Shown: positions 6,659 through 45,579 of the stretch, one piece after another | Position numbering within the stretch: position 1 is the stretch's first letter | How the letters are laid out: each line of letters begins with the position of its first letter | Origin: Candidatus Halocynthiibacter alkanivorans | GTDB lineage: Bacteria > Pseudomonadota > Alphaproteobacteria > Rhodobacterales > Rhodobacteraceae | DNA: 64,000 bases | Assembly: GCF_003333265.1 (NCBI RefSeq) | Contig: NZ_QOLB01000169.1 | Location: 32,079 to 96,078, forward strand | Direction of reading: 5' to 3' | Made by a program: the position numbers and the translations under genes | The notes under the pieces: generated by a model | What the model saw: only the letters and a program-made list of their open reading frames with translations | What the model was told of the DNA's origin: nothing | Databases searched by the model: none

Positions 6659-6690
6659 GCTGCAGTCCCGGCAAAAACGTGCTGATCTGC

Positions 6691-9165
<2,475 letters not shown>

Positions 9166-16757: not shown

Positions 16758-16769
16758 CAGGAGCCTGAC

Positions 16770-18047
16770 ATGCAGAGCACCGCCACTCCTCAAACCAAAG
16801 AACAATACCGGGCGCTGGGTCTGAGCACCTTTGCGTTCACCGTCTGCTTTGCGGTTTGGACACTTTTTTCAATCATCGGGGTCAGCATCAAACAAGATCT
16901 CGGCCTGTCGGATACCCAGTTTGGTTTGCTGGTGGCCACGCCGGTGCTGACCGGTTCGGTCAGCCGCATCTTTCTGGGCATCTGGACGGAACGCTTTGGC
17001 GGCCGGGTGGTGTTTCCGCTGCAGATGTTGATCACCGCGCTGGCGGTCTGGCTGCTGACTTCGGTGCAGAGTTATGAGGTGTTTTTGCTGGCCGCGCTTG
17101 GGCTCGGGCTTGCGGGTGGTTCGTTCATTGTCGGTGTCGCCTATGTATCGCGCTGGTTTGAGCCGGCAAAACAAGGCACTGCGCTGGGTATTTTCGGAGC
17201 CGGCAATGTCGGCGCTGCGGTGACCAATTTTGCCGCGCCTTTTCTGGTGCTGGCGCTGGGCTGGGAAGGAACGGCGCGCATCTATGCGGTTGCTCTGGCG
17301 GCAACAGCGGTACTGTATTTTCTCCTCGCCAAAACCGACCCGGTGCAAGAGCGCCGCCAGCGTTCTGGCGGGCAGCAGGCGACGCTTGCCCAGCAGCTGG
17401 CACCGCTGAAAAATCTCCAGGTCTGGCGCTTCTCCATCTACTACTTCTTTGTTTTCGGGGCCTTTGTGGCGCTCGCTTCTTTCCTGCCGCGATATTATGT
17501 TGGTGCCCATGGGCTGGAGCTGACCAGCGCAGGTTTTCTGGCCGGTCTGTTTTCGCTGCCCGGTTCGGTTTTCCGGGCGCTCGGGGGGTGGATGTCTGAC
17601 CGGTGGGGCGCGCGCAACGTGATCTATTTCACCTTTTTCACCTCAATGCTGGTGCTGTTTTTGATGGGGGTTCCGGGCGGCCGCTATATGGTGCAGGGCA
17701 TCTACGGGCTGGTCGAATTTGATTTCAGCGTCTCGCTGGGATTTTTTGTTGCCCTGACGGTGGCGCTGGGGTTTGTCATGAGCCTGGGCTCAGCAGCGGT
17801 TTTTAAACATATCCCGGTCTATTATCCGCAACATGTGGGCGCTGTCGGTGGCCTGGTGGGCATGATCGGCGGGCTGGGCGGATTCGTTCTGCCGATTGCG
17901 TTCGGCATGCTGCTTGACGCCACCGGGATCTGGACGGCGCCCTTTATGCTGCTGTTTTTGCTGGTGGCGGTTTCGACCCTCTGGATGCACCTGGCCATCC
18001 GCCGGATGGAACGCGCCCCGGAAACGGCGCTTGCAGCGGAGGCCTGA
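16770..18047 (+). CDS. NarK/NasA-type MFS nitrate/nitrite transporter
   Basis: The 425-residue protein has about twelve membrane segments and MFS features such as RIFLGIWTERFGGR after TM2 and GGWMSDRWGAR after TM8. Glycine-rich helices (GLGLAGGSFIVGVAYVSRW and VGGLVGMIGGLGGF) match the nitrate-signature segments of NarK/NasA transporters. It should import nitrate for the cytoplasmic reductases encoded just upstream. It follows nasA by 12 bases with an AGGAG site, and is the last gene of the nirB-nirD-nasA operon, the reverse of the common order with the transporter first. Confidence 0.92.
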   Translation: MQSTATPQTKEQYRALGLSTFAFTVCFAVWTLFSIIGVSIKQDLGLSDTQFGLLVATPVLTGSVSRIFLGIWTERFGGRVVFPLQMLITALAVWLLTSVQSYEVFLLAALGLGLAGGSFIVGVAYVSRWFEPAKQGTALGIFGAGNVGAAVTNFAAPFLVLALGWEGTARIYAVALAATAVLYFLLAKTDPVQERRQRSGGQQATLAQQLAPLKNLQVWRFSIYYFFVFGAFVALASFLPRYYVGAHGLELTSAGFLAGLFSLPGSVFRALGGWMSDRWGARNVIYFTFFTSMLVLFLMGVPGGRYMVQGIYGLVEFDFSVSLGFFVALTVALGFVMSLGSAAVFKHIPVYYPQHVGAVGGLVGMIGGLGGFVLPIAFGMLLDATGIWTAPFMLLFLLVAVSTLWMHLAIRRMERAPETALAAEA

Positions 18048-19054: not shown

Positions 19055-20242
19055 TCAGCTCCCCGGTGCTGAAGGCAGGCTGATCCAGGCGCTGTTTTCA
19101 CGCGAGGAATGCACGCAGGCCTCAATAAAGGCCACGCCTTGCACACCATCTGCAATCGTGGGGAAAATGACGTCATCCGGGACGGCCTGACCGCTGCGCC
19201 GCGCCTGGATCGCGCGCGCCGCCTCGGCGTAGATCGTCGCAAAACCTTCAAGATACCCCTCGGGGTGCCCCGCCGGTATCCGGCTGACCCTGGCAGCGGA
19301 CGGCCCGGATCCGGCACCATTGCGGGTGATCAGTCGTTTGGGCTCGCCAAAGGGCGTATACCAGAGATAATTCGGGTCTTCCTGGGCCCATTCCAACCCG
19401 CCTTTCGCGCCATAGATGCGCAGCCGTAGCCCGTTTTCATTGCCCGGCGCCACCTGGCTGGACCATAACATGCCACGCGCGCCTCCCAGGAAGCGCAGCA
19501 TCACATGCGCATTGTCATCCAGCCGCCGCCCGGCGACAAAGCTCTGCAGGTCCGCCGACAGCGTGTCGACCTGCAGCCCGGTGACAAAACTCAGCAGATT
19601 GAATGCATGGGTGCCAATATCGCCGATGCAACCACCCGCGCCAGACCGGGCCGGGTCGGTGCGCCACTGCGCCTGCTGGTTGCCCTGATCCTCCTGCGCT
19701 TCCGTCAGCCAGTCCTGGGCGTATTCCGCCTGCACCACACGTAATGCCCCAAGCTCCCCGGCGGCAATCATCTCCCTGGCCTGGCGGATCATCGGGAACC
19801 CGGTGTAGTTATGGGTCAGGATGAACAAGGCGTCAGAACTGGCCGCGACGTCTGCCAACTTGTGCGCGTCTTCAAGTGTTGAGGTCAGGGGTTTATCGCA
19901 AATGACATGGATGCCGCGTTTGAGAAACTCGCAGGCCGCCGCAAAATGAACGTGGTTTGGAGTGACGATGGACACCGCCTCGATCCCGTCCGGCCGCGCG
20001 CTCTCGCGTTCTGCCATGGTGGCGAAGTCATCATAGCTGCGCTCCGGATCCAGACCAAGCGCGCGGCCCGACGCCCGGGCTTTTTCAGGCGTTGAAGACA
20101 GCGCGCCGGCAACCAGTTGAAACTGGCCGTCGATCCGTGCCGCGATCCGGTGCACGCCACCAATAAACGCGTCGTTACCACCGCCGACCATGCCAAGCCG
20201 GATGGGCCCTGTTTGAAGTTCACTCATAGATTCGCCCGCCAT
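19055..20242 (-). CDS. Gfo/Idh/MocA-family NAD(P)-dependent sugar dehydrogenase
   Basis: The 395-residue protein has an N-terminal Rossmann fold (RLGMVGGGNDAFIGGVHR, residues 15-32), the family catalytic lysine in CDKP (Lys117) and the GDIGTHAFNL segment with Asp208 and His212. Such enzymes oxidise a sugar or inositol hydroxyl (or C3 of a glycoside) using NAD(P). It is the last gene of a minus-strand operon with a CUT2 sugar ABC transporter and a sugar isomerase, so it should act on the imported compound. The start at 20242 has GAGGG eight bases upstream; an ATG five codons inside (20227) is the alternative. It is MocA-like in family, but the substrate is not determined. Confidence 0.9.
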   Translation of the reverse strand: MAGESMSELQTGPIRLGMVGGGNDAFIGGVHRIAARIDGQFQLVAGALSSTPEKARASGRALGLDPERSYDDFATMAERESARPDGIEAVSIVTPNHVHFAAACEFLKRGIHVICDKPLTSTLEDAHKLADVAASSDALFILTHNYTGFPMIRQAREMIAAGELGALRVVQAEYAQDWLTEAQEDQGNQQAQWRTDPARSGAGGCIGDIGTHAFNLLSFVTGLQVDTLSADLQSFVAGRRLDDNAHVMLRFLGGARGMLWSSQVAPGNENGLRLRIYGAKGGLEWAQEDPNYLWYTPFGEPKRLITRNGAGSGPSAARVSRIPAGHPEGYLEGFATIYAEAARAIQARRSGQAVPDDVIFPTIADGVQGVAFIEACVHSSRENSAWISLPSAPGS

Positions 20243-20284
20243 TTTGCCGCCCTCTGTTCACGCTGTGCCCGTATGTGCCTGGTG

Positions 20285-21337
20285 TCAGATCCCCAACATA
20301 CGCCGGTTTGCGGCGTCGTCACTGCCAGTATCTGCAAAATCATCAAACGCCTTTTCGGTCACCCGGATGATGTGATCCTTTACGAACTGCGCGCCTTCGC
20401 GGGCGCCGTCTTCAGGATGTTTCAGACAGCATTCCCATTCAACCACGGCCCAGCCGTCGAAATCATTGGCGGCCATTTTGGAAAATATCGCGCCGAAATC
20501 CACCTGTCCGTCGCCCAGCGAGCGGAAACGGCCGGCCCGGTCGGTCCAGCTCTGGTAGCCGGAATATACACCCTGGCGCCCGGTCGGGTTGAACTCTGCA
20601 TCCTTGACGTGGAACATTTTTATCCGGTCGCGGTAGATGTCGATATTGTCGAGGTAGTCGAGGCACTGCAGAACATAATGCGACGGATCATAAAGCATGT
20701 TGGCGCGGGGATGGTTGTCGACACGCTCAAGGAACATTTCAAAAGTGACGCCGTCATGCAGGTCTTCGCCGGGGTGGATTTCGTAACAGACATCAACACC
20801 CATGTTTTCAGCGTGGTCCAGGATCGGTCGCCAGCGCCGCGCCAATTCGTCAAAAGCGGTCTCTACCAGGCCGGCAGGGCGCTGGGGCCAAGGGTAAAGG
20901 TATGGCCAGGCCAGGGCGCCGGAAAAAGTCGCATGGGCGGTCAGGCCCAGATTATAACTTGCGGTGATCGCCAGTTTTACCTGCTCAACCGCCCAGGCTT
21001 GCCGGGCAGCGGGATTGCCGCGCACTTCGGGAGCGGCAAAGCCGTCAAAGGCTTCGTCATAGGCAGGATGAACCGCCACCAGCTGCCCCTGAAGGTGGGT
21101 GGACAGTTCGGTGACCGTGACGCCGTTTTCCTGCGCAATACCCAGGAAATCATCGCAATACTGCCGCGAACTGGCCGCTTTGGTGAGGTCAATTAAACGC
21201 CTGTCCCAGCTGGGAACCTGGACGCCTTTATACCCACATTCAGCAGCCCATCTGGTGATGCCTGACCAGGTGTTGAACGGGGCGGCGTCGCCTGCAAACT
21301 GCGCCAGAAACAGCGCGGGACCTTTCAAAGTCTTCAT
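20285..21337 (-). CDS. Sugar phosphate isomerase/epimerase (AP endonuclease 2-like TIM barrel)
   Basis: The 350-residue protein has the xylose-isomerase-like TIM-barrel pattern: CYEIHPGED (metal ligand Glu), YDPSHYVLQ, FHVKDAEFNPTG and VEWECC near the C-terminus. These four positions carry the usual metal-binding Glu/Asp/His set. Such proteins isomerise or dehydrate keto-sugars or inosose intermediates and are commonly paired with a Gfo/Idh enzyme, here encoded 42 bases downstream. AAAGGAA precedes the start. The conserved pairing suggests that the dehydrogenase makes a keto intermediate that this enzyme rearranges; the exact reaction is not known. Confidence 0.88.
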   Translation of the reverse strand: MKTLKGPALFLAQFAGDAAPFNTWSGITRWAAECGYKGVQVPSWDRRLIDLTKAASSRQYCDDFLGIAQENGVTVTELSTHLQGQLVAVHPAYDEAFDGFAAPEVRGNPAARQAWAVEQVKLAITASYNLGLTAHATFSGALAWPYLYPWPQRPAGLVETAFDELARRWRPILDHAENMGVDVCYEIHPGEDLHDGVTFEMFLERVDNHPRANMLYDPSHYVLQCLDYLDNIDIYRDRIKMFHVKDAEFNPTGRQGVYSGYQSWTDRAGRFRSLGDGQVDFGAIFSKMAANDFDGWAVVEWECCLKHPEDGAREGAQFVKDHIIRVTEKAFDDFADTGSDDAANRRMLGI

Positions 21338-21364
21338 CGGACAATTCCTTTTGCGTGGGGGGAA

Positions 21365-21382
21365 AGGGGCACGAATGCCCCT
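21365..21382 (-). terminator. Hairpin between binding-protein and isomerase genes
   Basis: On the minus strand AGGGGCA and TGCCCCT form a perfect 7-bp stem closed by a TTCG tetraloop, followed by TTTCC. It sits in the gap after the binding-protein gene, a position where such hairpins commonly raise the level of the binding-protein mRNA relative to downstream genes by partial termination or 3' protection. Confidence 0.6.
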
Positions 21383-21405
21383 CTCATTTTCAAAGTCGGG
21401 AGGAC

Positions 21406-22362
21406 TTAGAAAGGCGAGTCCGGGAAGTAGAAAGCTTCTGCGTTCTCCGGGGTGATCAGCGTGGCGCCGAGAATGTAGCGCCCGGCAACGGGACCGTTTG
21501 ACTTGAATGCGGCCACGGTGACATCCATCGCAGTTGCGATCATTGACGGTGGATACAGCACGTCCACGGGGATCAGCTCATCGCCGTCCATGATGCTCTT
21601 GATGGTTTCTTTCATACCGGCACCGCCGACCACGAACATGCCGTTGCCATCGCGGCCCGCCTGTTTCAGTGCCGCAACTACGCCGATGGCAATGTCGTCA
21701 TCCTGAGCCCAGACCGCATCGATATCGGGGAAACGGCTGAGGAAATCCTGCATCACTTCAAAACCGTCATCGCGGTTCCAGTTGGCGTGTTTCTGGTCCA
21801 GTACATTGATGCCGGAGCCTTCGATCTCCGCCATGAAGGCATCATAACGTTCGTTGTCGATCAGCGTCGGAATGCCGCGCAGCACAACGATATTATCGCC
21901 TTCTTTCAGGCGGGTCTTCATATAGACGGCGGAGACGCGGCCCAGTTCCGGGTTGTTGCCGGCGACATAGATGTCCTCAATCCCCGGCAGGCTGAGGCCA
22001 CGGTCAACCACGGTGATCAACGCGCCGCTTTTCTTGACGTTCAAAACCGGATCGGTCAGCGGCTCAGATTCAAAGGGCAGGACCACCAGCGCGTCGATCT
22101 GGTGGATCGAGACAAGGTCTTCCAGAGCGCTGGCCTGCGCGCTTGGGTCCGGTGAGTTGATCAGGATCAGATCCACATCCGGGTACAGCGCTTCCAGCCG
22201 TATCTCCGCTTGCTCGGCGTGCCAGTTCATCCCGGCGGCCCAGGCGTGGGTCGGTGTCGGATAACTCACACCAATCTTGATCGATCTTTCTTGTGCCGTG
22301 GCGCCAGAGAAAGCCAGCGCACCGGTCAGGGCGATTGCACCCAGGGTCATAATAGGTTTCAT
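21406..22362 (-). CDS. Sugar ABC transporter periplasmic binding protein (CUT2, RbsB/MocB-like)
   Basis: The 318-residue protein has a signal peptide ending near ATA-QE (residues 1-23) and a type I periplasmic binding fold (IKIGVSYPTPTHAW; DALVVLPFESEPL; VVDRGLSLPG; DAVWAQDDDIAIGV). It delivers a sugar-like ligand to the permease encoded upstream. AAGGAG precedes ATG 22362; the frame is open further upstream, but a signal peptide begins here. RbsB-type proteins bind pentoses, hexoses, inositols and rhizopine; the ligand cannot be read from the sequence. An intercistronic hairpin follows the gene. Confidence 0.92.
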   Translation of the reverse strand: MKPIMTLGAIALTGALAFSGATAQERSIKIGVSYPTPTHAWAAGMNWHAEQAEIRLEALYPDVDLILINSPDPSAQASALEDLVSIHQIDALVVLPFESEPLTDPVLNVKKSGALITVVDRGLSLPGIEDIYVAGNNPELGRVSAVYMKTRLKEGDNIVVLRGIPTLIDNERYDAFMAEIEGSGINVLDQKHANWNRDDGFEVMQDFLSRFPDIDAVWAQDDDIAIGVVAALKQAGRDGNGMFVVGGAGMKETIKSIMDGDELIPVDVLYPPSMIATAMDVTVAAFKSNGPVAGRYILGATLITPENAEAFYFPDSPF

Positions 22363-22462
22363 CTCAGTTCCTCCTTGTTGATTGGACGCACCTTTCCTGT
22401 CCGGTTGCGCCCGGTTCTTTCGTTCTTTGGAAGGACAGGGTCCTCGCTTCTTAGTGAAACGC

Positions 22463-23482
22463 TTACGTTTTCTTGCGCCTGGCGCTGCCCCAGTCACCGC
22501 GCTGTAACCAAACAGCGATGATGATGATCAGGCCCTGCATCGTGCCGTTCAGATAATTCGAAATAATGTCGGTGAAATTCAGGATGTTGCCGATGGTGGT
22601 CAGGATCAGAGCGCCAAGGATGGTGCCACCGACGCGGCCGTAGCCACCTTTGAGCACCGTGCCGCCGATGATCACCGCAGCGATCGCTTCCAGTTCCCAC
22701 ATCACGCCGGTCGAGGCAGATGCGGAGCCCAGCCGTGGCACGTAAATGATCGTCGCCAGCGAGACACACAGCCCCTGGATGACATAGGTCATGGTCTTTA
22801 TCCGGTCGACTTTGATGGCGGAATATACCGCAACCGCCTCGTTCGATCCGATTGCAGTGCAGTAGCGTCCGAATGCGGTGCGGTTGAGCAGCAGCCAGCC
22901 CAGAACCGAAACCACTGCAAAGACCCAGACCGGAATGGGGAGGCCGATAAAGCTGTCGTAATAGATCGGGCGGTAAGTGCCGCGCACCGCGAAATCGAGC
23001 GACAGGGTGCCGCCATCGGCAAAATACGTCACCAGTGAGCGATAGATCCCCATGGTGCCGAGCGTCACAATAAAGGCTTCGATCTTACCCTTGGTCGTCA
23101 GGATGCCATTGACCCAGCCGGCGCCAAGACCCAGCAGGATGCTCGAACCGGCGCCGATCAACACCGTTGTCACACCACCGCCGAACGTTTCCACGGCGCT
23201 GTTCATGATGATGATCATAACACCCGCGATCGCGGCGGCCATGGAACCCACCGACAGGTCGATACCGCCGGCGGTGATAACAAAAGTTGCGCCAATCGCA
23301 ATAATGCCGATAAAAGCCGAACGCGTGAGCAGATTGGCCAGATTGCCCTCGCTCAGAAAGGCCGGGTTCAGCAAGTATCCGATAATGCAAAGCAGGATCA
23401 ACGCGATAGCAGGGCCGGCTGTCTTGATGTCAAAGCGCATTTGCTGTCCCTTCTTGCCGCTGTTTGTGGCCGCTGCGGTCAT
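22463..23482 (-). CDS. Sugar ABC transporter permease (CUT2, RbsC-like)
   Basis: The 339-residue membrane protein has about eight to ten hydrophobic segments and the CUT2 permease signatures ITAGGIDLSVGSMAA and GRYCTAIGSNEAVAVYSAIKVDRIK, the coupling region, followed by LEAIAAVIIGGTVLKGGYGRV. It forms the (homodimeric) channel of the importer with the ATPase encoded upstream. Its start overlaps the ATPase stop by four bases. The binding-protein gene follows after 100 bases. Confidence 0.94.
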   Translation of the reverse strand: MTAAATNSGKKGQQMRFDIKTAGPAIALILLCIIGYLLNPAFLSEGNLANLLTRSAFIGIIAIGATFVITAGGIDLSVGSMAAAIAGVMIIIMNSAVETFGGGVTTVLIGAGSSILLGLGAGWVNGILTTKGKIEAFIVTLGTMGIYRSLVTYFADGGTLSLDFAVRGTYRPIYYDSFIGLPIPVWVFAVVSVLGWLLLNRTAFGRYCTAIGSNEAVAVYSAIKVDRIKTMTYVIQGLCVSLATIIYVPRLGSASASTGVMWELEAIAAVIIGGTVLKGGYGRVGGTILGALILTTIGNILNFTDIISNYLNGTMQGLIIIIAVWLQRGDWGSARRKKT

Positions 23483-25002
23483 ATCGTCGCCTCCTGTTTC
23501 AACCCTGCGGCATAACGCACGATTTCGTTTTCGTTGATGTCGTCGCCGGTCAAAACGCCCATGATCTGCCCTTCGCGCATCACCACCACCCGGTGGCTGA
23601 TGCCAATGATCTCGGGCATCTCTGACGAGATCACCACGACCGACACGCCCTCGGCTGCCAGTGCAGCAATGAAATGGTAAATCTGTTGCTTGGTGCCGAC
23701 GTCGATGCCGCGGGTGGGTTCGTCAATGATGACAATACGCGGTTCGCTTTCCATCACCTTGGCCAGCAACAGTTTCTGCTGGTTGCCGCCGGAGAGGTCC
23801 CCGACTTTGGTTTTGTGATCGAGTGCACGGATGTCGAACCGGCGGATGGCCCGCTCCAGCGCAGCCTCTTCCGCCGCCACGACAATGCCCAGACGGCGGA
23901 TGAATTTTGGCAGCGACAGCAGGGTGAGGTTCAGCCGCATCTGCTTGCTGAGCAGCAGGCCTTTGGCTTTGCGGTCTTTGGTCAGATAGGCAATACCGGC
24001 GTCCCGCGCCGCGGCCACTGAGGCAAAACGGGTCTCTTTTCCATCGACCAGGATCTGGCCGCTTTCAATATGTGTAAGACCACAGATTGCTTCGAACACC
24101 GCCGTGCGACCGGCGCCGATCAGGCCGGAAAACCCCAGCACTTCTCCCTTGCGAAGATCAAAAGACACATCACGCACGCCATCGCAGCACAGGTTTTTGA
24201 CCCTGAGAACACGGTCCGCATCCACGTCGGCCTCTTTCAGGGGCGGATAGAGATCAGAAAGTTCACGTCCCACCATCATCTGTGCCATCGCATCCGGGGT
24301 CAGGGCTGCTGCGGGTTTGGTGGCGATCCATTGCCCGTCCCGCAGGATGGTGATGCGGTCGGCAATCTCTTTCACTTCGGAGAGTTTGTGCGACACAAAA
24401 ACAATGGCCACGCCGGTGGCTTTTAACCGTCTGACCTGGCGGAAAAACAACTCGGTCTCGGCCTGGGTCAACACCGCTGTCGGTTCGTCCATGATAAGGA
24501 CGCACGCATCACGGCTGATCGCTTTGACGATTTCAACCATTTGTTTTTCTGCAATTGAGAGGTCGGAAATGCGCGCGGTGGGGGCAATATTCAGGCCGAC
24601 CTCATCCAGATAGCGCTGCACTGTTTGGCGCATTTCATCGCGTTTCAGAATGCCGTTGCGGCTGATCTCGCGGCCAAGAAAAACGTTCTCTTCTACGGTC
24701 ATCTGTTCGGCCAGGTTGAGTTCCTGGTGGATCAGCACAATGCCCATTTCTTCGGCTTCGCCATTGGCGGGCAGCGATATTTCTGCGCCCTGAAAGCGAA
24801 TGCTGCCGGAGGTCGGGTTGTGAAAGCCGGAGAGGATTTTCATCAGCGTGGATTTGCCGGCGCCATTCTCGCCAATCAGGGCGTGAACTTCACCGGAACG
24901 GATCTGCATGTTGACGCTGAACAGAACCGGGATAGCCCCGAAGGACTTGCTGATCCTGTCGGCTTCCAGCACTGAGTGGTTCTCCATCCGCCCGTCAGGC
25001 AT
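23479..25002 (-). CDS. Sugar ABC transporter ATPase with two nucleotide-binding domains (CUT2, RbsA-like)
   Basis: The 507-residue protein has two ABC domains in tandem, as in RbsA and MglA. The first has Walker A GENGAGKSTLMK near residue 45 and Walker B VLIMDEPTAVLT. The second has the degenerate Walker A GLIGAGRTAVFEA, signature LSGGNQQKLLLAK and Walker B IVIIDEPTRGID. A degenerate second P-loop is normal in this family. GGGAG lies six bases before ATG 25002. It is the first gene of the minus-strand operon and is transcribed away from a LacI regulator across three palindromic operators at 25053-25110. Confidence 0.95.
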   Translation of the reverse strand: MPDGRMENHSVLEADRISKSFGAIPVLFSVNMQIRSGEVHALIGENGAGKSTLMKILSGFHNPTSGSIRFQGAEISLPANGEAEEMGIVLIHQELNLAEQMTVEENVFLGREISRNGILKRDEMRQTVQRYLDEVGLNIAPTARISDLSIAEKQMVEIVKAISRDACVLIMDEPTAVLTQAETELFFRQVRRLKATGVAIVFVSHKLSEVKEIADRITILRDGQWIATKPAAALTPDAMAQMMVGRELSDLYPPLKEADVDADRVLRVKNLCCDGVRDVSFDLRKGEVLGFSGLIGAGRTAVFEAICGLTHIESGQILVDGKETRFASVAAARDAGIAYLTKDRKAKGLLLSKQMRLNLTLLSLPKFIRRLGIVVAAEEAALERAIRRFDIRALDHKTKVGDLSGGNQQKLLLAKVMESEPRIVIIDEPTRGIDVGTKQQIYHFIAALAAEGVSVVVISSEMPEIIGISHRVVVMREGQIMGVLTGDDINENEIVRYAAGLKQEATI

Positions 25003-25052
25003 CCCGTTCTCCCGTCACAGATTTTCGGCATTTGAACATGCATCCTTCCATC

Positions 25053-25110
25053 TGTGTAAACCTTTTCACAACTTATGTAAACCTTTACATTGGGGCTGTA
25101 AACCTTTTCA
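25053..25110. promoter_or_regulatory. Triple palindromic operator array, 21-bp spacing
   Basis: Three copies of a TGTAAACCTTTTCA/TGTAAACCTTTACA-like palindrome lie at 25053-25070, 25075-25090 and 25097-25110. The middle one is a perfect inverted repeat (ATGTAAA-CC-TTTACAT). Their centres are 61.5, 82.5 and 103.5 (25000 added), exactly 21 bp apart, so all face the same side of the helix. They lie between the divergent ATPase and LacI genes, as expected for cooperative LacI-family binding. Confidence 0.8.
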
Positions 25111-25201
25111 CCCAGCGGAAATACGGGTATGGTCAGAGATAAGACTACCAAATACAACGTCTAACAAGGCCCCTTGGGTGCTGGATCTGAGGCAAAAACA
25201 C

Positions 25202-26272
25202 GTGCAGGACCAATCAAATAAACCGGCGACAATCGAAGATGTAGCGAAGCTCGCAGGTGTGTCCATTGCGACGGTCAGCCGCGCGATTCGCAAACCGGAA
25301 AAAGTCGCCGAAAGCACCCGGAAAAAGGTGACCGCCGCCATCGCCAGGACGGGTTACACCGCGAATGCGATGGCGCAGAATTTGCGCATGCAGCGCTCGC
25401 GCATGGTCATGGTGCTGACCCAGTCCATTGCCGACCCGAATTTTCCGGGCATCCTGATCGGGCTGGAAAAAGTCGCCAATGAGCGGGGTTACGGTGTTCT
25501 GATCGGCAATACCGAAGGCTCAGTGTCGCTGGAAGAAAACCATATGCGCTTCCTGTCCTCAGGCATGGTCGACGGCGTGGTGCTGCTGACCGGCCATTTG
25601 CCGGTTGCCGGCTGGGCCAAGTCCCCGGTGGCTTCCTATCCGCCGCTGGTGGCCGCAACCAGCCCTGTCAGCCAGGCAAACGTGACCTTTGTTGGCGTCG
25701 ATGATGTTGCCGCCTCAAAAATGGCGACCGAATATCTGGTGTCACTCGGGCACCGGGACATTGTCTATGTCTCTTCGGACGGCAGCGATATTGTGTCGGA
25801 CCTGCGGTATGATGGCTATCGGAAAGGCCTGGCAGAAGCCGCGGCGCCGCTCAGAGACTGGCGCATTGAAGGCGACGGCACCAGTGAAGGCGGGCGGGCA
25901 GCGGTGGAACGTCTGTTCATCAAGGACACGCTGCCGACGGCGTTCTTTTGTTACAATGACAACACTGCCATCGGGGTGATCAGCGCCCTGCATTTGCGGG
26001 GATACCGGGTGCCCGAAGATTTTTCGGTCATTGGGTTTGACGATATTCCGTTTGCAAACAATATCACCCCCGCGCTTACGACCATCCGCCAGCCCCGCGG
26101 TCAGATTGGCGAGTTGGCGATGGGTTTTTTGCTGGACAGCCTGACCGGCGGCGACAGACCTCCGGCGTCAAGCCTGCTGCACGGCGATCTGGTCGTACGT
26201 GAGAGTTGCGGGGCGGTGCCCAACCGTTCGCTTCGTCGTGGGGGCCATCCGGGGCCTTCCGCCACCGGCTGA
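25202..26272 (+). CDS. LacI-family regulator of the CUT2 sugar operon
   Basis: The 356-residue protein has an N-terminal LacI helix-turn-helix ([20 protein letters not shown]) and hinge ([15 protein letters not shown]), then a type I periplasmic-binding-like effector domain ([44 protein letters not shown]). The frame is open far upstream, but GTG 25202 preceded by GAGG at nine bases gives a normal LacI N-terminus. It is divergent from the sugar ABC operon, and the triple operator lies between, so it most likely represses that operon and itself until the imported sugar or a product binds. Confidence 0.9.
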
Positions 26273-26361
26273 GCCAAATGAATTTGGTGCCTGGCCCGGT
26301 CGGCTTTGCAAACCGGGCGGCCACACGATGTGTGCGCAAAAAGGAGACGGCCCGCAGGTCA

Positions 26362-27174
26362 TCAGCGCGGATCTGAGCTGGTCTCCTGCAGCCAGCTTCG
26401 GAATTCAGACAGGACAGAGGCTTTGACCGGGACTTTGTGTTCCGGTCCCGGGTAGGCGCCGCTCCCCACTTCGTCCTTGTACGACTGATAGGCTTTGACG
26501 CGTGCTTTTTGCAGTTTTTCAAGTTCCGCCTGGAAATTGTCATAGGCTTTTGCGTGGCGTGGTACGTGTCCGCGGGTTTGCCCCAGCACATCCTCGGAAA
26601 ACAGATATTGCGCGTGACACCCGCTTCCGGCCCCCATCGATATCAAAAACAAAGACGTATGGGCGGCAATTTCGGACGCGATTTCTTCCGGCACGACTTC
26701 GATTTCAGCCGCCACTGCGCCGGCCTCTTCCAGGGCGCGGACTTGCTGCCAGACTAGCCGGGCGGTCTCCATCGTTTTCCCAACCGCTTTGAATCCACCG
26801 GTCCAGGTTGCCTTTGAGGGAATAAGACCGGTGTGGCCGCAGGCCGGGATGCCTTCTTCCGTCAGGCGGCGGATGGTTTGCGGTCGTTGTGGGCAATAGA
26901 TCATATCAGCGCCGGCCCCAATCAGCTGAAATGCGGCTCTCAGGCATTCTTCTTCCGTGATGTAGACCCCAAGATCGAGGCCAGGGCAGGCGAACACGGA
27001 TGGCGCGATTGAACGGAATCCGGGGTTCAGCAGCAAAGACGGCGGCACAGACACCATGTCAATTCCGGCCTGTTCCGCGGCGGCGGCTTCGTCGAGCGTA
27101 TCGACCCGCAACATCGAAAGCTGTTTTTTACCCCGCAGGGCGCGCAAATCGGCAATTGTCATCGGCTGGGTCAT
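26362..27174 (-). CDS. PanB-family (ketopantoate hydroxymethyltransferase-like) protein, divergent
   Basis: The 270-residue protein matches the PanB TIM-barrel family in its later part: GHTGLIPS at 113-120, GGFKAVGKT at 126-134, a glutamate in IEVVPEEIA (Glu159, aligned with the PanB catalytic glutamate) and SMGAGSGCHAQYLFSEDVLG. PanB normally transfers a hydroxymethyl group from methylene-tetrahydrofolate to a 2-keto acid. However, the metal-binding GDS aspartate of true PanB is replaced here (region IDMVSVPPSLL) and the second metal-binding aspartate is not evident. It directly abuts mocF (stop and start adjacent), the last gene of a MocDEF operon. A C1 role in O-demethylation is an inference; it is probably not the pantothenate enzyme. 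Confidence 0.75.
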   Translation of the reverse strand: MTQPMTIADLRALRGKKQLSMLRVDTLDEAAAAEQAGIDMVSVPPSLLLNPGFRSIAPSVFACPGLDLGVYITEEECLRAAFQLIGAGADMIYCPQRPQTIRRLTEEGIPACGHTGLIPSKATWTGGFKAVGKTMETARLVWQQVRALEEAGAVAAEIEVVPEEIASEIAAHTSLFLISMGAGSGCHAQYLFSEDVLGQTRGHVPRHAKAYDNFQAELEKLQKARVKAYQSYKDEVGSGAYPGPEHKVPVKASVLSEFRSWLQETSSDPR

Positions 27175-28392
27175 CTATCCGGTCCTCAAAAGTTTTTTCA
27201 AATTGCTCTGTGCATCTGCCAGAAGGCGCGGGTCGGGACGGGCGCCGCGCTCGATCAGCATCTCGGCAATCCGGATTTCTTTCGCGACAGAGCCGGAGGG
27301 GCCGAGACCACTGGCCGAGACCAGCCGACCGTCATCGTCAAACTGAAACAGGAGTGTGGCGCCGGAGCCTGGTTCCCGCCGCACAAACGGCCGCCCGGGT
27401 TGCGGCAACCCCGCGACCTGCAGCGTAAGGTCATATTGCTCGCTCCAGAACCAGGGGGTTTTCTGATATTCCCTGGATGCGCCAAGCATATTCGCCGCCG
27501 CATGTTCCCCCTGATCCAGCGCATTGCGCCAGGATTCAAGCCGGACGGGCGCGCCGGTGCGTGGCGAGGGAAAGTTGCAGCAGTCGCCGGCCGCAAAGAT
27601 GTTCTGATCAGATGTTGCCAGCGTGACGTTGACCGTGATGCCATTCCGCACCTCCAACCCTGCCTGTTCTGCAAGCCCGGTTTCGGGCTCTGCGCCGATG
27701 GCGGCGACGATCAGGTCGGCGGTGAATTGCGATCCATCCAACAGGGCAATTGTCCTGTCGGTGATCGCGGTGATCTCCGCGTCAAATTCAAATCTGACGC
27801 CTTCATTGCGGTGGCGCTGCACCAGGCGTGCGGCAAGTTCGGGCGGAACCGCACGCCCAAGCGCCGCAGAGCTCACTTCAATTATTGTAACATCAACATC
27901 TCCGGCGCGAAGCCGGGCGGCCAGTTCCAGACCGATCAGTCCGGCCCCTATAATGGCGACATGGCTGCCGGGCACTGCGATCGAAGAAATATGCTGTGCA
28001 TCGGACATCGTGCGCAAAGTGGCCACAGGGGCAGTGGTCGCCAAAGGCAGTCTGCGGGCGCGGGCGCCAGTGGCAAACAGCAGCTTGTCATAGTGCATTA
28101 TGCGCCCGTCAGCCAGGCGAACAACGCGATCCGCCCGGTCCACCTCAGTCACCTTTGTGCCGAGGCTCAGTGAGATCTCCGCACTGTCCCATTGCGCCTG
28201 TGTGGCAATTTCCTTGAGCGGCACGGCGCCACCTGGTCTGCCCTTGGACAGTGGCGGGCGTTCGTAAGGGCGATGTTCCTCCTCGCCCAGCACATCTATC
28301 GGGCCGGAATACCCGTTTTCGCGCAGCGCAAACGCGGCGCGGGCGCCACACTCGCCAGCCCCGACAATCACCATGCCTCTGTGTTGGGTCAT
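27175..28392 (-). CDS. mocF: FAD-dependent ferredoxin reductase (MocF-like)
   Basis: The 405-residue protein is a ferredoxin-NAD(P)H reductase of the type serving Rieske systems: FAD site IVGAGECGARAAFALRE at the N-terminus, a second dinucleotide site IIGAGLIGLELAARLRAG around residue 150, and FAD-contacting NIFAAGDCCNFP. It passes electrons from NAD(P)H to the MocE ferredoxin encoded upstream. Start and mocE stop overlap by four bases; the PanB-like gene starts immediately after its stop. In rhizobia MocF works with MocD and MocE in rhizopine demethylation; that role is inferred from the gene set. Confidence 0.88.
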   Translation of the reverse strand: MTQHRGMVIVGAGECGARAAFALRENGYSGPIDVLGEEEHRPYERPPLSKGRPGGAVPLKEIATQAQWDSAEISLSLGTKVTEVDRADRVVRLADGRIMHYDKLLFATGARARRLPLATTAPVATLRTMSDAQHISSIAVPGSHVAIIGAGLIGLELAARLRAGDVDVTIIEVSSAALGRAVPPELAARLVQRHRNEGVRFEFDAEITAITDRTIALLDGSQFTADLIVAAIGAEPETGLAEQAGLEVRNGITVNVTLATSDQNIFAAGDCCNFPSPRTGAPVRLESWRNALDQGEHAAANMLGASREYQKTPWFWSEQYDLTLQVAGLPQPGRPFVRREPGSGATLLFQFDDDGRLVSASGLGPSGSVAKEIRIAEMLIERGARPDPRLLADAQSNLKKLLRTG

Positions 28393-28712
28393 TGCGCGCC
28401 CATCAGCTCGATCAGGACGCGCCCGTTTTCGATCTTCGTTGCATAGGTGCGCAGATTGACACAGACCGGTGCCGCTTTGGCCTCGCCGGTGCGGTAGTCA
28501 AAGCGTGCGTTATGTTTGGGGCATTCGATGATTTCATCCATGACCAGGCCATCCGCCAAAGACACTTTTTCATGGGTGCACAGGCCATCAGTGCAATAAA
28601 AGCGATCATCCGGGCTGCGGTAAATCGCAAATACCGCGCCGTCATGGTCAAAGCGGATCACATCTTCTTCTTCGATATCGTCGGTCGCGCAAGCGTCAAT
28701 CCAGCTGGGCAT
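28389..28712 (-). CDS. mocE: MocE-type Rieske [2Fe-2S] ferredoxin
   Basis: The 107-residue protein has a complete Rieske motif: Cys45-x-His47 (LCTHEKV) and Cys64-x-x-His67 (ECPKHNARFD). The start WIDACATDDIEEEDVIRFDH and the segment DGLVMDEIIECPKH closely resemble what I know of MocE-family ferredoxins. It should carry electrons from MocF to the MocD oxygenase. It lies between mocD (41-base gap) and mocF (four-base overlap), in a minus-strand operon. Confidence 0.88.
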   Translation of the reverse strand: MPSWIDACATDDIEEEDVIRFDHDGAVFAIYRSPDDRFYCTDGLCTHEKVSLADGLVMDEIIECPKHNARFDYRTGEAKAAPVCVNLRTYATKIENGRVLIELMGAQ

Positions 28713-28753
28713 TGGCAGGTCTCCAGGTGTTTTAATTTGGAAGTTTTCGGCGG

Positions 28754-29848
28754 CTATTGCGCGGCCATGGCGGGTTCAACCTGACCGTGGAACTCGGGTC
28801 GGTAGGGGCGTGCCGTTTCGGGCAGGCTTTGTTTGAGGAACCAGTTTTCGTGTCTGAGCTGGCGGCGCAGCACTGGCAGAACTTCACTGTAGGCCTGCCA
28901 TATTCCTGTGCTGGCGGGTGGCAGGTCGTGTTTAATCGCCGCATGCAGCGCGGGAAGCTGGTGATAGGGCACCATTGGAAACATGTGGTGTTCGATGTGG
29001 TAATTCATGTTCCAGTAGATAAAGCGGCTGACCGGGTTCATGTGGACAGTGCGGCTGTTGAGCCGGTGATCCAGCACGTTGTCGGCCAGCCCTGCATGTT
29101 GCAACACTCCGGTCATGACGTGGTGCCAGGCGCCGTAAAGCCGGGGCAGGCCTATGACCATCAGTGGCAATATCGATCCCAGCCAGAGGGCCAGCGCGAG
29201 CGTTGCCGCGTAAATGATGGTCCAGATCCGCGCCACGAAGATGAGCCTGGCGTGCTCGCTTTGTGGCACATAGGTGGCTTCCTGCGGGTTCAGCCTGCCA
29301 GAGGCATTGCGTAGCATATTCCCCATCGCCTGCCACGCATCCACCACGCCAAATAGGTTGAGAATGATCCGCCGCATGGCGGGCGGCCGCATGGCGACAA
29401 TTTCAGGGTCGCGGCCAACGATCAGCGTATCAGTGTGATGGCGGGTATGGCTCCAGCGCCAGGACACAGGGTTGCGCATCATCATGAAGCTGGCGATCTG
29501 ATAGACCCAATCATTCATCCAGCGGGTGCGGAAGGCCGTGCCGTGGGAACATTCATGCCACCGCGAATCCGCAGCCGAGCCGTAAAGCACGCCGTATGCC
29601 AGCCAGAACGGCACCGACCAGAGGCCTGGCCACAACAAGATGCCAAAGGCGGCAAACAGCAACATGCAGCCCAGCCAGATCACGGTATCGCGGATGGCGG
29701 GCTGATCAGAGCGGCGCATCAGCGCTTTCATCTCTTTGCGCGAAATTTCCGAATGATACCATTCTGCTGCGGTAAGACCGGCGTCGACGGCGTGTTGGGC
29801 ACTCGGACCCAATAAGTCGTAGTCCCGTTTACCTGCTGACATAACCAT
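28754..29848 (-). CDS. mocD: MocD-like membrane diiron hydroxylase (fatty-acid desaturase fold)
   Basis: The 364-residue membrane protein has several hydrophobic segments and three histidine boxes of the desaturase/alkane hydroxylase family: HECSH near residue 98, HTRHH about 35 residues later and HIEHH in the last third. These bind a diiron centre at the cytoplasmic face. With MocE and MocF as electron donors it should form an oxygenase. In rhizobia MocDEF is associated with O-demethylation of the rhizopine 3-O-methyl-scyllo-inosamine. A hydrocarbon or lipid substrate cannot be excluded from sequence alone. ATG 29848 is first; ATG 29842 is an alternative. The gene faces a LacI regulator. Confidence 0.85.
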   Translation of the reverse strand: MVMSAGKRDYDLLGPSAQHAVDAGLTAAEWYHSEISRKEMKALMRRSDQPAIRDTVIWLGCMLLFAAFGILLWPGLWSVPFWLAYGVLYGSAADSRWHECSHGTAFRTRWMNDWVYQIASFMMMRNPVSWRWSHTRHHTDTLIVGRDPEIVAMRPPAMRRIILNLFGVVDAWQAMGNMLRNASGRLNPQEATYVPQSEHARLIFVARIWTIIYAATLALALWLGSILPLMVIGLPRLYGAWHHVMTGVLQHAGLADNVLDHRLNSRTVHMNPVSRFIYWNMNYHIEHHMFPMVPYHQLPALHAAIKHDLPPASTGIWQAYSEVLPVLRRQLRHENWFLKQSLPETARPYRPEFHGQVEPAMAAQ

Positions 29849-30076
29849 AGGAACCTAACCTCTCAGAAAACATCACCCGTACTTAGCTGCGTCCTGCTGA
29901 TCCCGATCATTCGGGCGGTCAGATAACACCAGATACCGGGCCGTAACTTGGTAAAATGAAGATATCATCTGAGGTTGCGAATTCAAATTTTCATGAATTT
30001 TCCTATCAATAACTATCATCCTTGATTGGCATTTGTGATATAAACCTATCAGGGATGGTTTCAGAGGAATTAGACA
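29849..30076. promoter_or_regulatory. Divergent promoter region between mocD-like gene and LacI gene
   Basis: This AT-rich gap should hold promoters for both directions. CTATCA occurs three times in the same direction (30003-30008, 30013-30018, 30046-30051), the first two 10 bp apart and the third 33 bp further, with one opposite TGATAT at 30036-30041. CCCGA/TCGGG around TCAT (29902-29915) is a small perfect inverted repeat. These are candidates for regulator sites, but no single clear LacI operator stands out. Confidence 0.4.
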
Positions 30077-31114
30077 TTGGCCAAAAGACCAACGATGCAG
30101 GACGTTGCTGACGCAGCCGGCGTGGGGGTGGCAACGGTTGACCGGGTGCTGAACAACCGCGCCGCCGTGCGGACCGCAACCGCCGCAAGCGTGATCAACG
30201 CGGCGCAGAAACTGGGCTATTATTCGGTTCCGGTCATTCGCCATCGCCTGACCTCCAAATTGCCCCTGTGCCGGCTTGGCTTCGTTTTGCAGAAGGCGGG
30301 TGACAGTTTTTATCAGCAGCTTGCAGAACAGCTGCAGGCCTGCACCGAAAACGCACCGCAGGTGCGCGGGCGTGCCATAATTGAGTTTGTTGACGATTTG
30401 TCGGCGGAAAAAATTTCGGCAGCTATGCTGGCGATGCAGGACAGTGTGGATGTGATCGCCTGTGTTCCCATTGAGCACCCGATTGTGTCGCGCACCATTT
30501 CAGAGCTGGCAGAAAAAGGCATTCCGGTCGTTGCCCTGCTGACGACGCTGGGCGCACAATCACTTGCCGGATATATTGGCGTCGACAACCGGCAGCTGGG
30601 GCGGACCGCCGGTTGGCTGATGTCGCATCTCGTATCCAGTCCGGGCAAGATTGCGGTTTTTGTCGGCAGTCACCGCTATGTCGGCCAGGAGATGAGCGAG
30701 ATCGGATTCCGCTCTTATTGCCGCGAGAACCCCCGGGGCCATGAGCTTCTTGAAACCTCGATCAATCTTGATGACCCCGCCGTGGCCGAAGGGGTCACGC
30801 TTGACCTGTTGCGCAAACATCCTGATCTGGCCGGGATCTATGATGCGGGGGGCGGGCGCGAAGGTATAATCTCGGCGCTTCGCAGTGATGGTCAGGGGCG
30901 GAATGTGGCTGTTATCTGCAGTCAACTGACACCGGCGACGCAGTCTGCCCTTATTGACGGGGTGATCTCTGCGGTGCTTTCGCTGCCCGTCAACGCGTTT
31001 TGCGCGACCACCGTTGAGACGATGGTGGCCGCCTTTCAGGGCGACCCAAACAAGCATCAGCATCAGCATATCATTCCGTTCGACATCATCACGTCGGAAA
31101 ACATCAGGTCCTGA
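30077..31114 (+). CDS. LacI-family regulator, probably of the mocDEF-panB-like operon
   Basis: The 345-residue protein has a LacI helix-turn-helix at the N-terminus (TMQDVADAAGVGVATVDRVLNN) and a sugar-binding-like effector domain (YIGVDNRQLGRTAGWLMSH; GIYDAGGGREGIISAL). TTG 30077 is taken as start because GAGGAA lies seven bases upstream; the first ATG is six codons further (30095) and would cut into the helix-turn-helix. It is divergent from mocD, so it most likely controls that operon. The 'VDRVLNN' variant of the recognition helix is common in LacI proteins linked to inositol-type and pentose catabolism; the ligand is unknown. Confidence 0.88.
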   Translation: MAKRPTMQDVADAAGVGVATVDRVLNNRAAVRTATAASVINAAQKLGYYSVPVIRHRLTSKLPLCRLGFVLQKAGDSFYQQLAEQLQACTENAPQVRGRAIIEFVDDLSAEKISAAMLAMQDSVDVIACVPIEHPIVSRTISELAEKGIPVVALLTTLGAQSLAGYIGVDNRQLGRTAGWLMSHLVSSPGKIAVFVGSHRYVGQEMSEIGFRSYCRENPRGHELLETSINLDDPAVAEGVTLDLLRKHPDLAGIYDAGGGREGIISALRSDGQGRNVAVICSQLTPATQSALIDGVISAVLSLPVNAFCATTVETMVAAFQGDPNKHQHQHIIPFDIITSENIRS

Positions 31115-31559: not shown

Positions 31560-32306
31560 ATGAAACTTACTTCGCTCATTGCCGCCGCCGCGCTGACGGT
31601 TGCCGCATCCGGAACCGCTTTTGCTGAGGAATATAAAATTGGCGTTGATGCCAGCTTTCCACCCTTCAGCGAAGTAAAAGGCGACGGCTCGGTTGTCGGG
31701 CTTGAGGTCGACTTCATTAACGAGCTGTGTACCCGCATCGATGCTGAGTGCGAGATCGTGCCAATGCAGTTTGACGCGCTGATTTCCGGGCTGCAGGCCC
31801 GCAAAATCGATATGATTATCGGCTCGATGTCGATCACCGGCGAACGCGCCAAAGTGATCAATTTTTCCGACCGTTACTACAATGCGCCGATCCAGTTTGT
31901 GACCAGGTTTGACGCGCCTTCGGACATGGCGGCCGATGCGGTGATCGGTGTTGAACGCGGCTCCATCAGTGCCACATATGCGGACAACGAGCTGAAGAGC
32001 GCGACAGTCAAAACGTATGACGCCCAGCTGGCAGCGATGAAAGACCTGGAAGTGGGTCGCGTTGATTATGTTCTGGGTGATCTGCTGACGATCTACGACT
32101 GGCTGGAAGAGGGTGCGAAAGCACAATTCATCCTGACCGGGGAGTCGATTTCTGATCCGGCATTCGTTGGTGACGGCATTGGAATTGGCTTGCGCAAATC
32201 CGACGATGAGCTGCTGGCAACCGTCAATGCGGCCATTGCTGGTATCGCGGATGATGGCACATTTGATGAAATCACATCGGACTATTTCCCCTTCTCAATC
32301 CGCTGA
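31560..32306 (+). CDS. Polar amino-acid ABC transporter binding protein
   Basis: The 248-residue protein has a signal peptide ending near AFA-EE (residue 22) and the type II binding fold of the HisJ/ArgT family: [49 protein letters not shown] and [21 protein letters not shown]. The MSIT-x-ER segment matches the part that contacts the ligand amino and carboxyl groups in this family. GGGAGAA precedes the ATG. It starts an operon of ATPase and two permeases. The exact amino acid is uncertain. Confidence 0.92.
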
Positions 32307-32335
32307 TTGAAGCAAGCAACAAATTAACGTCGCCT

Positions 32336-32351
32336 CCCGGGTTGGTCCGGG
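32336..32351 (+). other. Short hairpin after the binding-protein gene
   Basis: CCCGG and CCGGG pair around GTTGGT in the gap between the binding-protein and ATPase genes. It is small, with no T-run, but is in the position where transporter operons often carry a differential-expression stem-loop. Confidence 0.35.
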
Positions 32352-32377
32352 TGGTGACCGAAAGACAGGAGAGAGAC

Positions 32378-33157
32378 GTGTCCGAGAGCCCCGTCAACGT
32401 ATTGAACGCCACGAATATCCACAAATCCTTCGGCCAGGTGGACGTTCTGCACGGAATTGATCTGCAGGCAGCTGAACACGAGGTGATCAGTGTGCTTGGC
32501 AGAAGTGGCTCGGGCAAAAGTACCTTGCTCAGATGCCTGTCCTTCCTTGAAACCCCCAGCGCCGGCCGGATTGAGATTTGTGGCAAGACCATCGATATGG
32601 GATCGGTTGCAGACAAGCGGCAACCCTCTGCCAAAGACATACGCGCGTTGCGACGCTCGATCGGGTTTGTATTTCAGTCCTTCAATCTCTGGTCCCACCG
32701 GACCGTGCTTGAGAATGTAATTGAAGCACCGATGCATGTGCTCGGCCTCTCCAAAGCAGAAGCGACTGAAAAAGCCGAGGCGCTGCTGCATAAAGTCGGA
32801 ATTTATGAGCGCAAGGACTACCACCCGAAACACCTGTCGGGGGGCCAGCAGCAGCGGGTGGCAATCGCCCGGGCACTGGCCATGGAACCGGCGCTGCTGC
32901 TGTTTGATGAGCCCACCTCGGCGCTGGATCCTGAGCTTGTAAACGAAGTGCTGCAGGTGATGCGCCAGCTGGCAGACGAGGGGCGCACGATGATTGTGGT
33001 CACCCATGAAATGCGTTTTGCCCGCGAAGTATCCAGCCGCACGGTGTTCTGCCAGGGCGGGACAGTGGCCTTTGACGCGCCGTCAGAAGACGCGTTCCAC
33101 CCTGATTTCAATGAAGGCAATTTCAGGCAGTTCATCGCCGCGGGTGGAAACGAGTGA
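32378..33157 (+). CDS. Polar amino-acid ABC transporter ATPase
   Basis: The 259-residue ATPase has Walker [14 protein letters not shown] near residue 40, signature [15 protein letters not shown] and Walker [17 protein letters not shown], with the HisP/GlnQ-type segment [16 protein letters not shown]. The open frame extends to a TTG at 32342, but GTG 32378 is chosen because GGAG lies just upstream. Its stop overlaps the first permease start by four bases. It energises amino-acid uptake with the two permeases that follow. Confidence 0.94.
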
Positions 33158-33828
33158 TGAACTTTGAAGGCATTATCGAATATTCGCCACTGTTTCTGAC
33201 GGGCATAGTGACCACGGTCTTGCTGGCATTGTCGTCGCTGGCACTTGGCCTTCTGGGCGGGATATTGCTGGCACTGGCAAAACTGTCCTCCATCTGGCCG
33301 CTGCGCGCCCTTGCCAATGTCTTTTCAGATTTTTTTCGCGGTATTCCTGAAATTCTGGTGCTGATGGTAGTGTTCTTCGCGCTGCCTGTGGTGCTGGCGG
33401 ATCTCACCGGAACCTATGTGGAAATCACCCCCTTTGTTGCCGGCCTGCTGACCCTGAGCATCGCGTTTGCCTCCTTTGCATCCGAAACGATCCGGGCGGC
33501 CTTTCAGGCGATTTCAAAAGGCGAGTTGGAGGCGGCAGCGGTCTATGGGTTTTCGGACTGGCAGGTCTTCTACCGGATCAAATTGCCCTTGATGTGGCGC
33601 AACGCAGTGCCGGGACTGGGCAATATCTGGCAGACCATGCTGAAAGACACCGCGCTGATCTCTGTCATTGGGTTGTCTGACGTGATGCGGGCGGCAAAGG
33701 CCGGTGGTGACGCCTTTCGTGACCCCTTTAGTTTCTTGCTGGTCGCCGCGCTGATCTATCTGGTGATCACTCTGTTCTCCGAAGCTGTTCAGCGCCGTCT
33801 CGAAGCACATCTGCGTCAGGAAGCGTGA
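33154..33828 (+). CDS. Polar amino-acid ABC transporter permease 1 (HisQ-like)
   Basis: The 224-residue membrane protein has about five hydrophobic segments and the family coupling segment [25 protein letters not shown] (EAA loop), plus [17 protein letters not shown] near residue 60, typical of the HisQM/GlnP type. It pairs with the next permease. It overlaps the ATPase gene upstream and the second permease gene downstream by four bases each. Confidence 0.92.
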
Positions 33829-34526: not shown

Positions 34527-34584
34527 GCCGGCGCTCTCCCAATGAGCAGCCGACCCAATCCCAACAGACTCCGCAGGAGAAACC

Positions 34585-35073: not shown

Positions 35074-35131
35074 TCCTGGCACGCGTTATCCGCGTACGCT
35101 CTAATAGTTTGTTACAATAAGTGGACTTCTC

Positions 35132-39631: not shown

Positions 39632-39644
39632 TTAATCACTGGTT

Positions 39645-39668
39645 GGCGGCGCACAGGTTTGCGCCGCC
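39645..39668 (+). terminator. Hairpin after the CUT1 binding-protein gene
   Basis: GGCGGCGCA pairs perfectly with TGCGCCGCC around a six-base loop, 14 bases after the stop codon. No T-run follows directly. It is placed to give more binding-protein mRNA than permease mRNA. Confidence 0.6.
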
Positions 39669-39701
39669 GCCACTCTACTTTCCAGAATTTCGGGGGCACC
39701 A

Positions 39702-41102: not shown

Positions 41103-41117
41103 CAGGAGAATTTTGTC

Positions 41118-45536: not shown

Positions 45537-45540
45537 AATT

Positions 45541-45579
45541 GCGGCACAGGTGAACACCGCCTGAAAACCGCTGTGCCGC
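45541..45579 (+). other. Inverted repeat after the LacI gene
   Basis: GCGGCACAG (45541-45549) and CTGTGCCGC (45571-45579) are a perfect 9-base inverted repeat with a 21-base loop, starting four bases after the LacI stop. No T-run follows. It may be a weak terminator or an mRNA stem before the hydrolase genes. Confidence 0.45.

Follow-up and report, generated by a model that had tools for sequence, protein, structure and literature searches.

A conserved mocDEF operon with a PanB-like fourth gene, predicted to demethylate methylated inositols or sugars, beside a probably separate sugar module

The stretch analysed here, which we call the window, is 64,000 nucleotides of the genome of Candidatus Halocynthiibacter alkanivorans. 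Within it, positions 19055-31114 hold two gene units, an importer/hydratase/Gfo unit at 19055-26272 and a unit of mocD, mocE, mocF and a PanB-like gene at 26362-31114. An earlier note, made from the sequence alone, had described the whole as a single rhizopine-like (moc) set that imports and demethylates one compound. The genes that it named are all present as intact open reading frames (ORFs) of the expected families by Pfam and NCBIfam, and each operon has, as it said, its own LacI gene, from which it is divergent, and its own operator-like sites. The mocD-mocE-mocF-PanB-like unit is a conserved operon, and its features are as follows.

26362..27174, minus strand: PanB-like gene (PF02548) at the end of the operon, its product lacking the metal ligands of PanB and predicted to transfer a one-carbon (hydroxymethyl) unit
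27175..28392, minus strand: mocF, FAD-dependent ferredoxin reductase (PF07992 and PF14759), with a 4-base overlap with mocE
28389..28712, minus strand: mocE, Rieske-type 2Fe-2S ferredoxin (TIGR02377 MocE_fam_FeS, 170.7 bits, cut-off 136.15)
28754..29848, minus strand: mocD, membrane di-iron oxygenase of the FA_desaturase family, predicted O-demethylase component (PF00487, 124.5 bits)
30036..30051, strand not applicable: TGATAN6TATCA, candidate operator of the mocDEF unit (motif match)
30077..31114, plus strand: LacI2, LacI-family regulator divergent from mocD, distantly related to the FixV / rhizobial moc LacI group (41% to the R. etli moc LacI)

Named genomes were scanned with the PanB-like protein, which gave 253 relatives, and the locus counts given here are for the best 80 of these 253. 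In 77 of the 80 loci the mocD gene is on the same strand and no more than 6 kb away (74 of the 75 where at least 6 kb of upstream sequence is present), and mocE and mocF are found in 77 and 72 of them, respectively. Most relatives keep the order mocD-mocE-(mocF)-PanB-like. A divergent FixV-like LacI gene (at least 45%) accompanies 70 loci, a 270-residue TIM barrel 54, a MocB-type binding protein (at least 60%) 46 and iolG (at least 70%) 21. The same association was seen in a survey of 198 genomes of the window's family, where MocD occurs in 54, the PanB-like protein in 42 and both in 34 (odds ratio 29, p 7e-17, not corrected for kinship). At the 63 places in these genomes that carry a PanB-like gene, MocD is encoded within 1 kb on the same strand at 30 and within 15 kb at 38. 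The literature, in the parts that we consulted, presents mocDEF as a three-gene unit; its usual fourth gene is the PanB-like one.

By sequence, MocD, MocE and MocF are true moc-type proteins, as the earlier note had supposed. MocE exceeds the curated cut-off of its family, and MocD carries the histidine boxes HECSH, HTRHH and NYHIEHH and is 68.6% identical to a protein of R. etli CFN42 plasmid p42e. In a quick 59-row tree, the window MocD belongs to a starred clade of 31 rows, which includes the MocD proteins of four rhizopine-type (MocR-regulated) loci together with 18 of LacI/PanB-like loci. Twelve weak desaturase-family homologues form one side of a starred branch, apart from this clade, in a set that held no characterised desaturase or alkane hydroxylase. 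At one of the rhizopine-type loci, that of S. meliloti RCAM1115 (L006, about 6200-7300), mocD is unannotated and shows up as two ORFs, and is possibly disrupted.

The PanB-like protein has the fold of PanB and scores below the panB equivalog cut-off (TIGR00222, 102.4 bits against 207.55); a canonical panB gene (339 bits) is found elsewhere in this genome. At positions D45, D84 and E114, which we take to be the metal ligands in E. coli PanB numbering, the window protein has P, G and P. Over 107 PanB-like rows, D84 and E114 are kept in none and D45 in two, and the catalytic glutamate E181 is kept in all 107. In PanB the metal ligands hold and enolise the keto acid, and ordinary PanB chemistry is therefore unlikely for a protein without them. 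From its sequence the PanB-like protein is probably not a ketopantoate hydroxymethyltransferase, and it bears a pantothenate-enzyme name in public records despite the lost metal site. We have also considered that it might be a formaldehyde aldolase or a 2-oxo-acid hydroxymethyltransferase, detoxifying formaldehyde onto a keto acid in a reaction near to that of PanB. We regard this as unlikely, given that the ligands for such a step are lost in 105 to 107 of the 107 rows and that the score lies under the cut-off.

A role in one-carbon (C1) transfer is suggested by the neighbours of the PanB-like gene. The purU gene is present in 28 of the 80 loci, and in 21 of these it follows at most 3 kb downstream on the strand of the PanB-like gene; folD is present in seven, five of them within 10 kb; the identities of both neighbours were confirmed. 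The roles of PurU and FolD in C1 metabolism are general knowledge. In A. tumefaciens HAMBI 105 the genes run mocDEF-PanB-like-purU-folD, in the rhizopine-type loci L006, L036 and L037 the PanB-like gene is present and then purU, and in L208 (4817-8576) a PanB-like-folD-purU-inositol dehydrogenase run stands with no MocD within 4 kb. The proposal that the PanB-like enzyme handles the C1 unit fits these neighbours, whereas a reaction of the ordinary PanB type is unlikely. In the part of the literature seen that joins rhizopine with a hydroxymethyltransferase, only serine hydroxymethyltransferase was met, and this does not establish that the PanB-like gene is absent from print.

At four PanB-like loci without MocD (L202, L204, L207 and L210) the neighbours are genes of the FA_hydroxylase family PF04116, a second family of membrane hydroxylases, which includes the ether-cleaving alkylglycerol monooxygenase. 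Among the family genomes, 18 of the 25 MocD-less PanB-like places were read, and these have a PF04116 gene within 4 kb in five cases, a weaker MocD in two and a MocE ferredoxin in eight. A separate observation is that Sinorhizobium alkalisoli (L032, 8956-10781) has the PanB-like gene and iolG with no mocDEF alongside.

Inositol genes and a MocB-like importer recur near mocDEF in other genomes. In six Rhodobacterales loci (L180-L183, L185 and L186), MocD and MocE adjoin a LacI-TIM-MocB-CUT2 cluster; iolG is present in four of the six (L180, L182, L185 and L186), the PanB-like gene in all but L180, and L185 has purU and MocF as well. The genome of the window has such a cluster on contig C116, LacI-TIM-MocB-CUT2-iolG, without mocD (LacI 51%, TIM 48%, MocB 66-68%, iolG 69%), and iolD on C95 (903 bits).

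Upstream of mocD, the pattern TGATAN{4,6}TATCA has its single match in the 64 kb at the candidate operator listed above, with 0.02 expected. A similar site is found in 30 of 92 LacI-MocD regions against a shuffled mean of 0.0, although some of these loci overlap and the pattern was found post hoc. The sequence TGGTATCACA was also considered as an operator, being frequent upstream of and at mocD, yet it is MocD coding sequence and was ruled out. In a quick LacI tree, LacI2 lies inside a starred set of 40 rows, on a long branch with support 85.

Taken as a whole, we read this as a LacI-linked operon in which MocDEF would oxidise a cyclitol or sugar ether at its O-methyl group, after which the PanB-like protein would move the C1 unit to tetrahydrofolate, and we hold the chances of this complete reading to be about even. 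Its first part, the removal of methyl groups from methylated inositols or sugars by a three-part oxygenase, is likely on the sequence evidence, with an O-methyl inositol (pinitol, ononitol or a related compound) as the probable substrate. Electrons would pass from NAD(P)H to MocF, then to MocE and to MocD, which would hydroxylate the O-methyl group to a hemiacetal. The PanB-like protein would then transfer the hydroxymethyl or formaldehyde unit onto tetrahydrofolate with no release of free formaldehyde, and uptake would be by the MocB-type CUT2 importer on C116, not by the adjacent importer. Oxidative O-demethylation with transfer to tetrahydrofolate is suggested by purU, folD and inositol dehydrogenase as neighbours elsewhere and, at some places that lack mocD, by the second hydroxylase family. 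Were the methyl carbon indeed channelled to folate, methyl ethers would have a degradation route that spares formaldehyde, a widespread annotation error would be put right, and FixV would gain a concrete class of candidate ligands.

Several results weigh against this. No purU was found in 52 of the 80 loci, and the best purU score in this genome, 81 bits, stays under the cut-off of 285.95, so that the folate step rests on the neighbours in other genomes. In the family survey, 25 of the 63 PanB-like places are without MocD within 15 kb, 32 of 69 MocD places are without the PanB-like gene, and 13 of the 18 MocD-less places read have no PF04116 gene within 4 kb. No inositol gene stands next to the mocDEF operon of the window. 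The TGATA palindrome is absent from 62 of the 92 LacI-MocD regions, including the LacI region on C116, and co-regulation of the mocDEF unit with C116 is therefore unsupported; it is absent too from R. etli, from the FixV-type region and from the seven Rhodobacterales regions shown, L180, L181 and L183-L186 among them. LacI2 branches outside the main moc/FixV clade. The AlphaFold model of MocD has low confidence (pLDDT 67.2); it gave 0 Foldseek matches at E 0.001 or better, MocD had no PDB sequence match, and the model was set aside as uninformative.

A further result against this reading comes from the neighbours in one small genome. This 1.6 Mb alphaproteobacterial genome (G185) has six MocD-like and four PanB-like genes, with one operon in the order MocD-MocF-MocE-PanB-like-MocD-FA_hydroxylase-lactonase-dehydratase. 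At loci L144, L145, L146 and L147 these genes lie in sugar operons that also hold genes for CUT2, GH4, PhyH, lactonase and IlvD/EDD proteins, and a GH4 gene lies between MocD and PanB-like. As sugar-acid and GH4 genes accompany MocD and PanB-like here, a methylated sugar may be the substrate. Together with a 1.4 Mb genome (G054) in which PanB-like and MocD are adjacent, these operons suggest methylated sugars as further substrates.

A more distant alternative is that MocDEF acts on an N-methylated or a non-methylated small molecule and that the C1 genes are coincidental neighbours. The substrate of MocDEF is, after all, a prediction from sequence; in R. etli the mocDEF operon adjoins nadA, L-aspartate oxidase and nadC genes, and P. 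syringae is described, in the part of the source seen, as having mocDEF next to xylA2 with the rest of moc missing (PMC5132102). This is at odds with the recurrence of iolG, the MocB-type importer and purU/folD as neighbours, and with the account, again from part of the source, of a rhizopine-inducible mocD promoter in S. meliloti L5-30, where mocDEF belongs to rhizopine catabolism (PMC10107442). We give this alternative little credence and prefer the O-demethylation of methylated inositols or sugars.

The LacI regulators may link this system to symbiosis. FixV of M. loti is, according to the part of the report consulted, a LacI-type activator of nifA2 with homologues divergent from mocD operons, and its inducer was termed in 2013 only 'possibly an inositol derivative' (PMC3538637). 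In a Mesorhizobium locus (L173, G214:C242, 4191-6313), a FixV-type LacI gene and a TIM barrel gene adjoin nodC, nodI, nodJ and dctA. This LacI is 57% identical to the R. etli moc LacI (the TIM barrel 52%) and nests among mocD-linked LacI proteins in the quick tree. The stretches of the window's genome that were read showed neither nif nor nod genes, although no genome-wide search for nif was made. Lotus nodules accumulate pinitol and ononitol, as stated in the portion of the source seen (PMC8730688), which makes O-methyl inositols natural candidates for the FixV signal; we offer this as a proposal.

A bolder reading would make the PanB-like family a new enzyme class, a metal-free hydroxymethyl:tetrahydrofolate transferase derived from PanB minus the keto-acid half-reaction. 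It would work alongside two membrane oxygenase families that are unrelated to each other (MocD and the FA_hydroxylase type) in oxidative methyl-ether cleavage, from rhizobia to streamlined alphaproteobacteria of 1.4-1.6 Mb. FixV, the activator of nifA2 in Mesorhizobium, would be a captured regulator of that system, and the long-sought nodule signal that it senses would be pinitol or another O-methyl inositol, or a derivative of one. We put this forward tentatively and think it, on balance, doubtful.

The second unit consists of the following features.

19055..20242, minus strand: Gfo/Idh oxidoreductase, separate module (PF01408; best PDB match 3v5n, 613 bits)
20285..21337, minus strand: 2-hydroxy-3-keto-glucal hydratase-like TIM barrel (AP_endonuc_2), separate module (8ro4, 597 bits, residues 1-350)
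21406..22362, minus strand: CUT2 sugar-binding protein (Peripla_BP_4), separate module (PF13407; 4joq, 369 bits)
22463..23482, minus strand: CUT2 permease (BPD_transp_2), separate module (PF02653)
23479..25002, minus strand: CUT2 ATPase, separate module (PF00005, two stretches)
25055..25110, plus strand: three TGTAAACCTTTNCA copies with 21-bp spacing, candidate operators of the importer module (3 matches, 0.00 expected)
25202..26272, plus strand: LacI of the importer module (PF00356 and PF13377 on 25208-26272); the GTG start at 25202 is a guess, as the ORF opens at 24908

On sequence grounds this unit is not moc. The gene taken earlier for an isomerase matches the 2-hydroxy-3-keto-glucal hydratase 8ro4 from end to end, and the Gfo/Idh protein, earlier called MocA-like, shares 27% identity with the MocA of an S. 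meliloti rhizopine-type locus, and the binding protein shares 27% with the MocB of that locus. The hydratase occurs at 95 places in 91 of the 198 family genomes, and at two of these, the window and one other genome (G010), it lies within 20 kb of MocD. It is near none of the 80 named PanB-like loci; a relative of the binding protein (at least 40%) is likewise found in none, and the adjacent CUT2 importer was ruled out on this count as the moc importer. The importer linked to mocDEF in other genomes is MocB-like. A relative of the Gfo protein (at least 40%) is in two of the 80. Sulfitobacter (W002) has an orthologous module (hydratase 87%, Gfo 71%, CUT2 54-61%) that adjoins xylA and xylB, with no moc gene. 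Thus the recurrent linkage expected of the whole gene set held for mocDEF with the PanB-like gene and failed for the importer half, and the single set importing and demethylating one compound is not borne out. The adjacent operon is probably a separate glycoside or keto-sugar module, and since its hydratase and importer are rarely linked to moc loci elsewhere and the operator-like sites are distinct, we see two regulons side by side.

Were the 12 kb a single pathway all the same, the CUT2 proteins would import a methylated glucoside or sugar, MocDEF would demethylate it, and the hydratase and Gfo protein would degrade the product. The units are adjacent in the window, and G010 repeats the pairing, with the entire hydratase-Gfo-CUT2-LacI module about 12 kb from mocD-mocE-PanB-like, which is why we keep cooperation of the halves as a minority reading. 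A Gfo relative (53%) follows PanB-like in Mesorhizobium L081, the GH4 gene of G185 lies between MocD and PanB-like, and the genomes with MocD and hydratase overlap somewhat (odds ratio 2.9, p 0.001). Set against the separate LacI genes, the different operator-like sites, the rarity of hydratase near moc genes and the moc-free module of Sulfitobacter, a single pathway appears quite improbable to us, and two separate modules remain our preferred reading.

Elsewhere in the window, a nitrate assimilation set lies upstream of both units at 11378-18047, with a NirB-like nitrite reductase (Pfam) followed by a molybdopterin nitrate reductase and an MFS nitrate transporter, both read from translations. 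At 31560-36271 there are amino-acid-type ABC transporter genes, then a RidA-like ORF (read from its translation) and a class-V aminotransferase (PF00266). At 38174-47495, binding-protein-dependent ABC transporter genes are accompanied by genes for an Exo_endo_phos protein and a member of the inositol-monophosphatase family; the set possibly serves to take up a phosphoinositol-like compound.

Compared with known systems, the importer module resembles the non-hydrolytic glucoside pathway of Agrobacterium (OGE, hydratase, Gfo), in which, by the part of the report seen, glucosides are cleaved via C3 oxidation, beta-elimination, hydration and reduction (PMC10628242). A hydratase orthologue stands next to a Gfo oxidoreductase in both, whereas the window module has a CUT2 importer of its own relative to the operon as described there (PMC10628242). 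GlycDH and OGE were not seen among the 19-31 kb genes, and the rest of the genome was not searched for either; by Pfam, the five assigned genes of the module include no second TIM barrel and no GlycDH. Relative to ketopantoate hydroxymethyltransferase PanB, the PanB-like protein has the three metal ligands and K112 replaced, misses the loop after GDSLG, and has new invariant residues W124, E157, R206 and H207. As to FixV-Msi119 of Mesorhizobium loti, LacI2 falls within a wider group that holds moc LacI proteins and the symbiosis-island LacI of L173, which has a FixV-type arrangement; LacI2 is about 41-44% identical and branches deeper. Unlike the rhizopine moc loci, where MocR, MocB and MocA would be expected beside mocDEF, the window has a LacI and no MocR, and next to its mocDEF there is no MocB or MocA orthologue; unlike L006, L036 and L037, no purU stands next to the operon. 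What it shares with the mocDEF of rhizopine (3-O-methyl-scyllo-inosamine) catabolism in Sinorhizobium meliloti L5-30 and Rhizobium is the same three redox proteins in the same order, with a MocD that belongs to one clade with those of the MocR-type loci.

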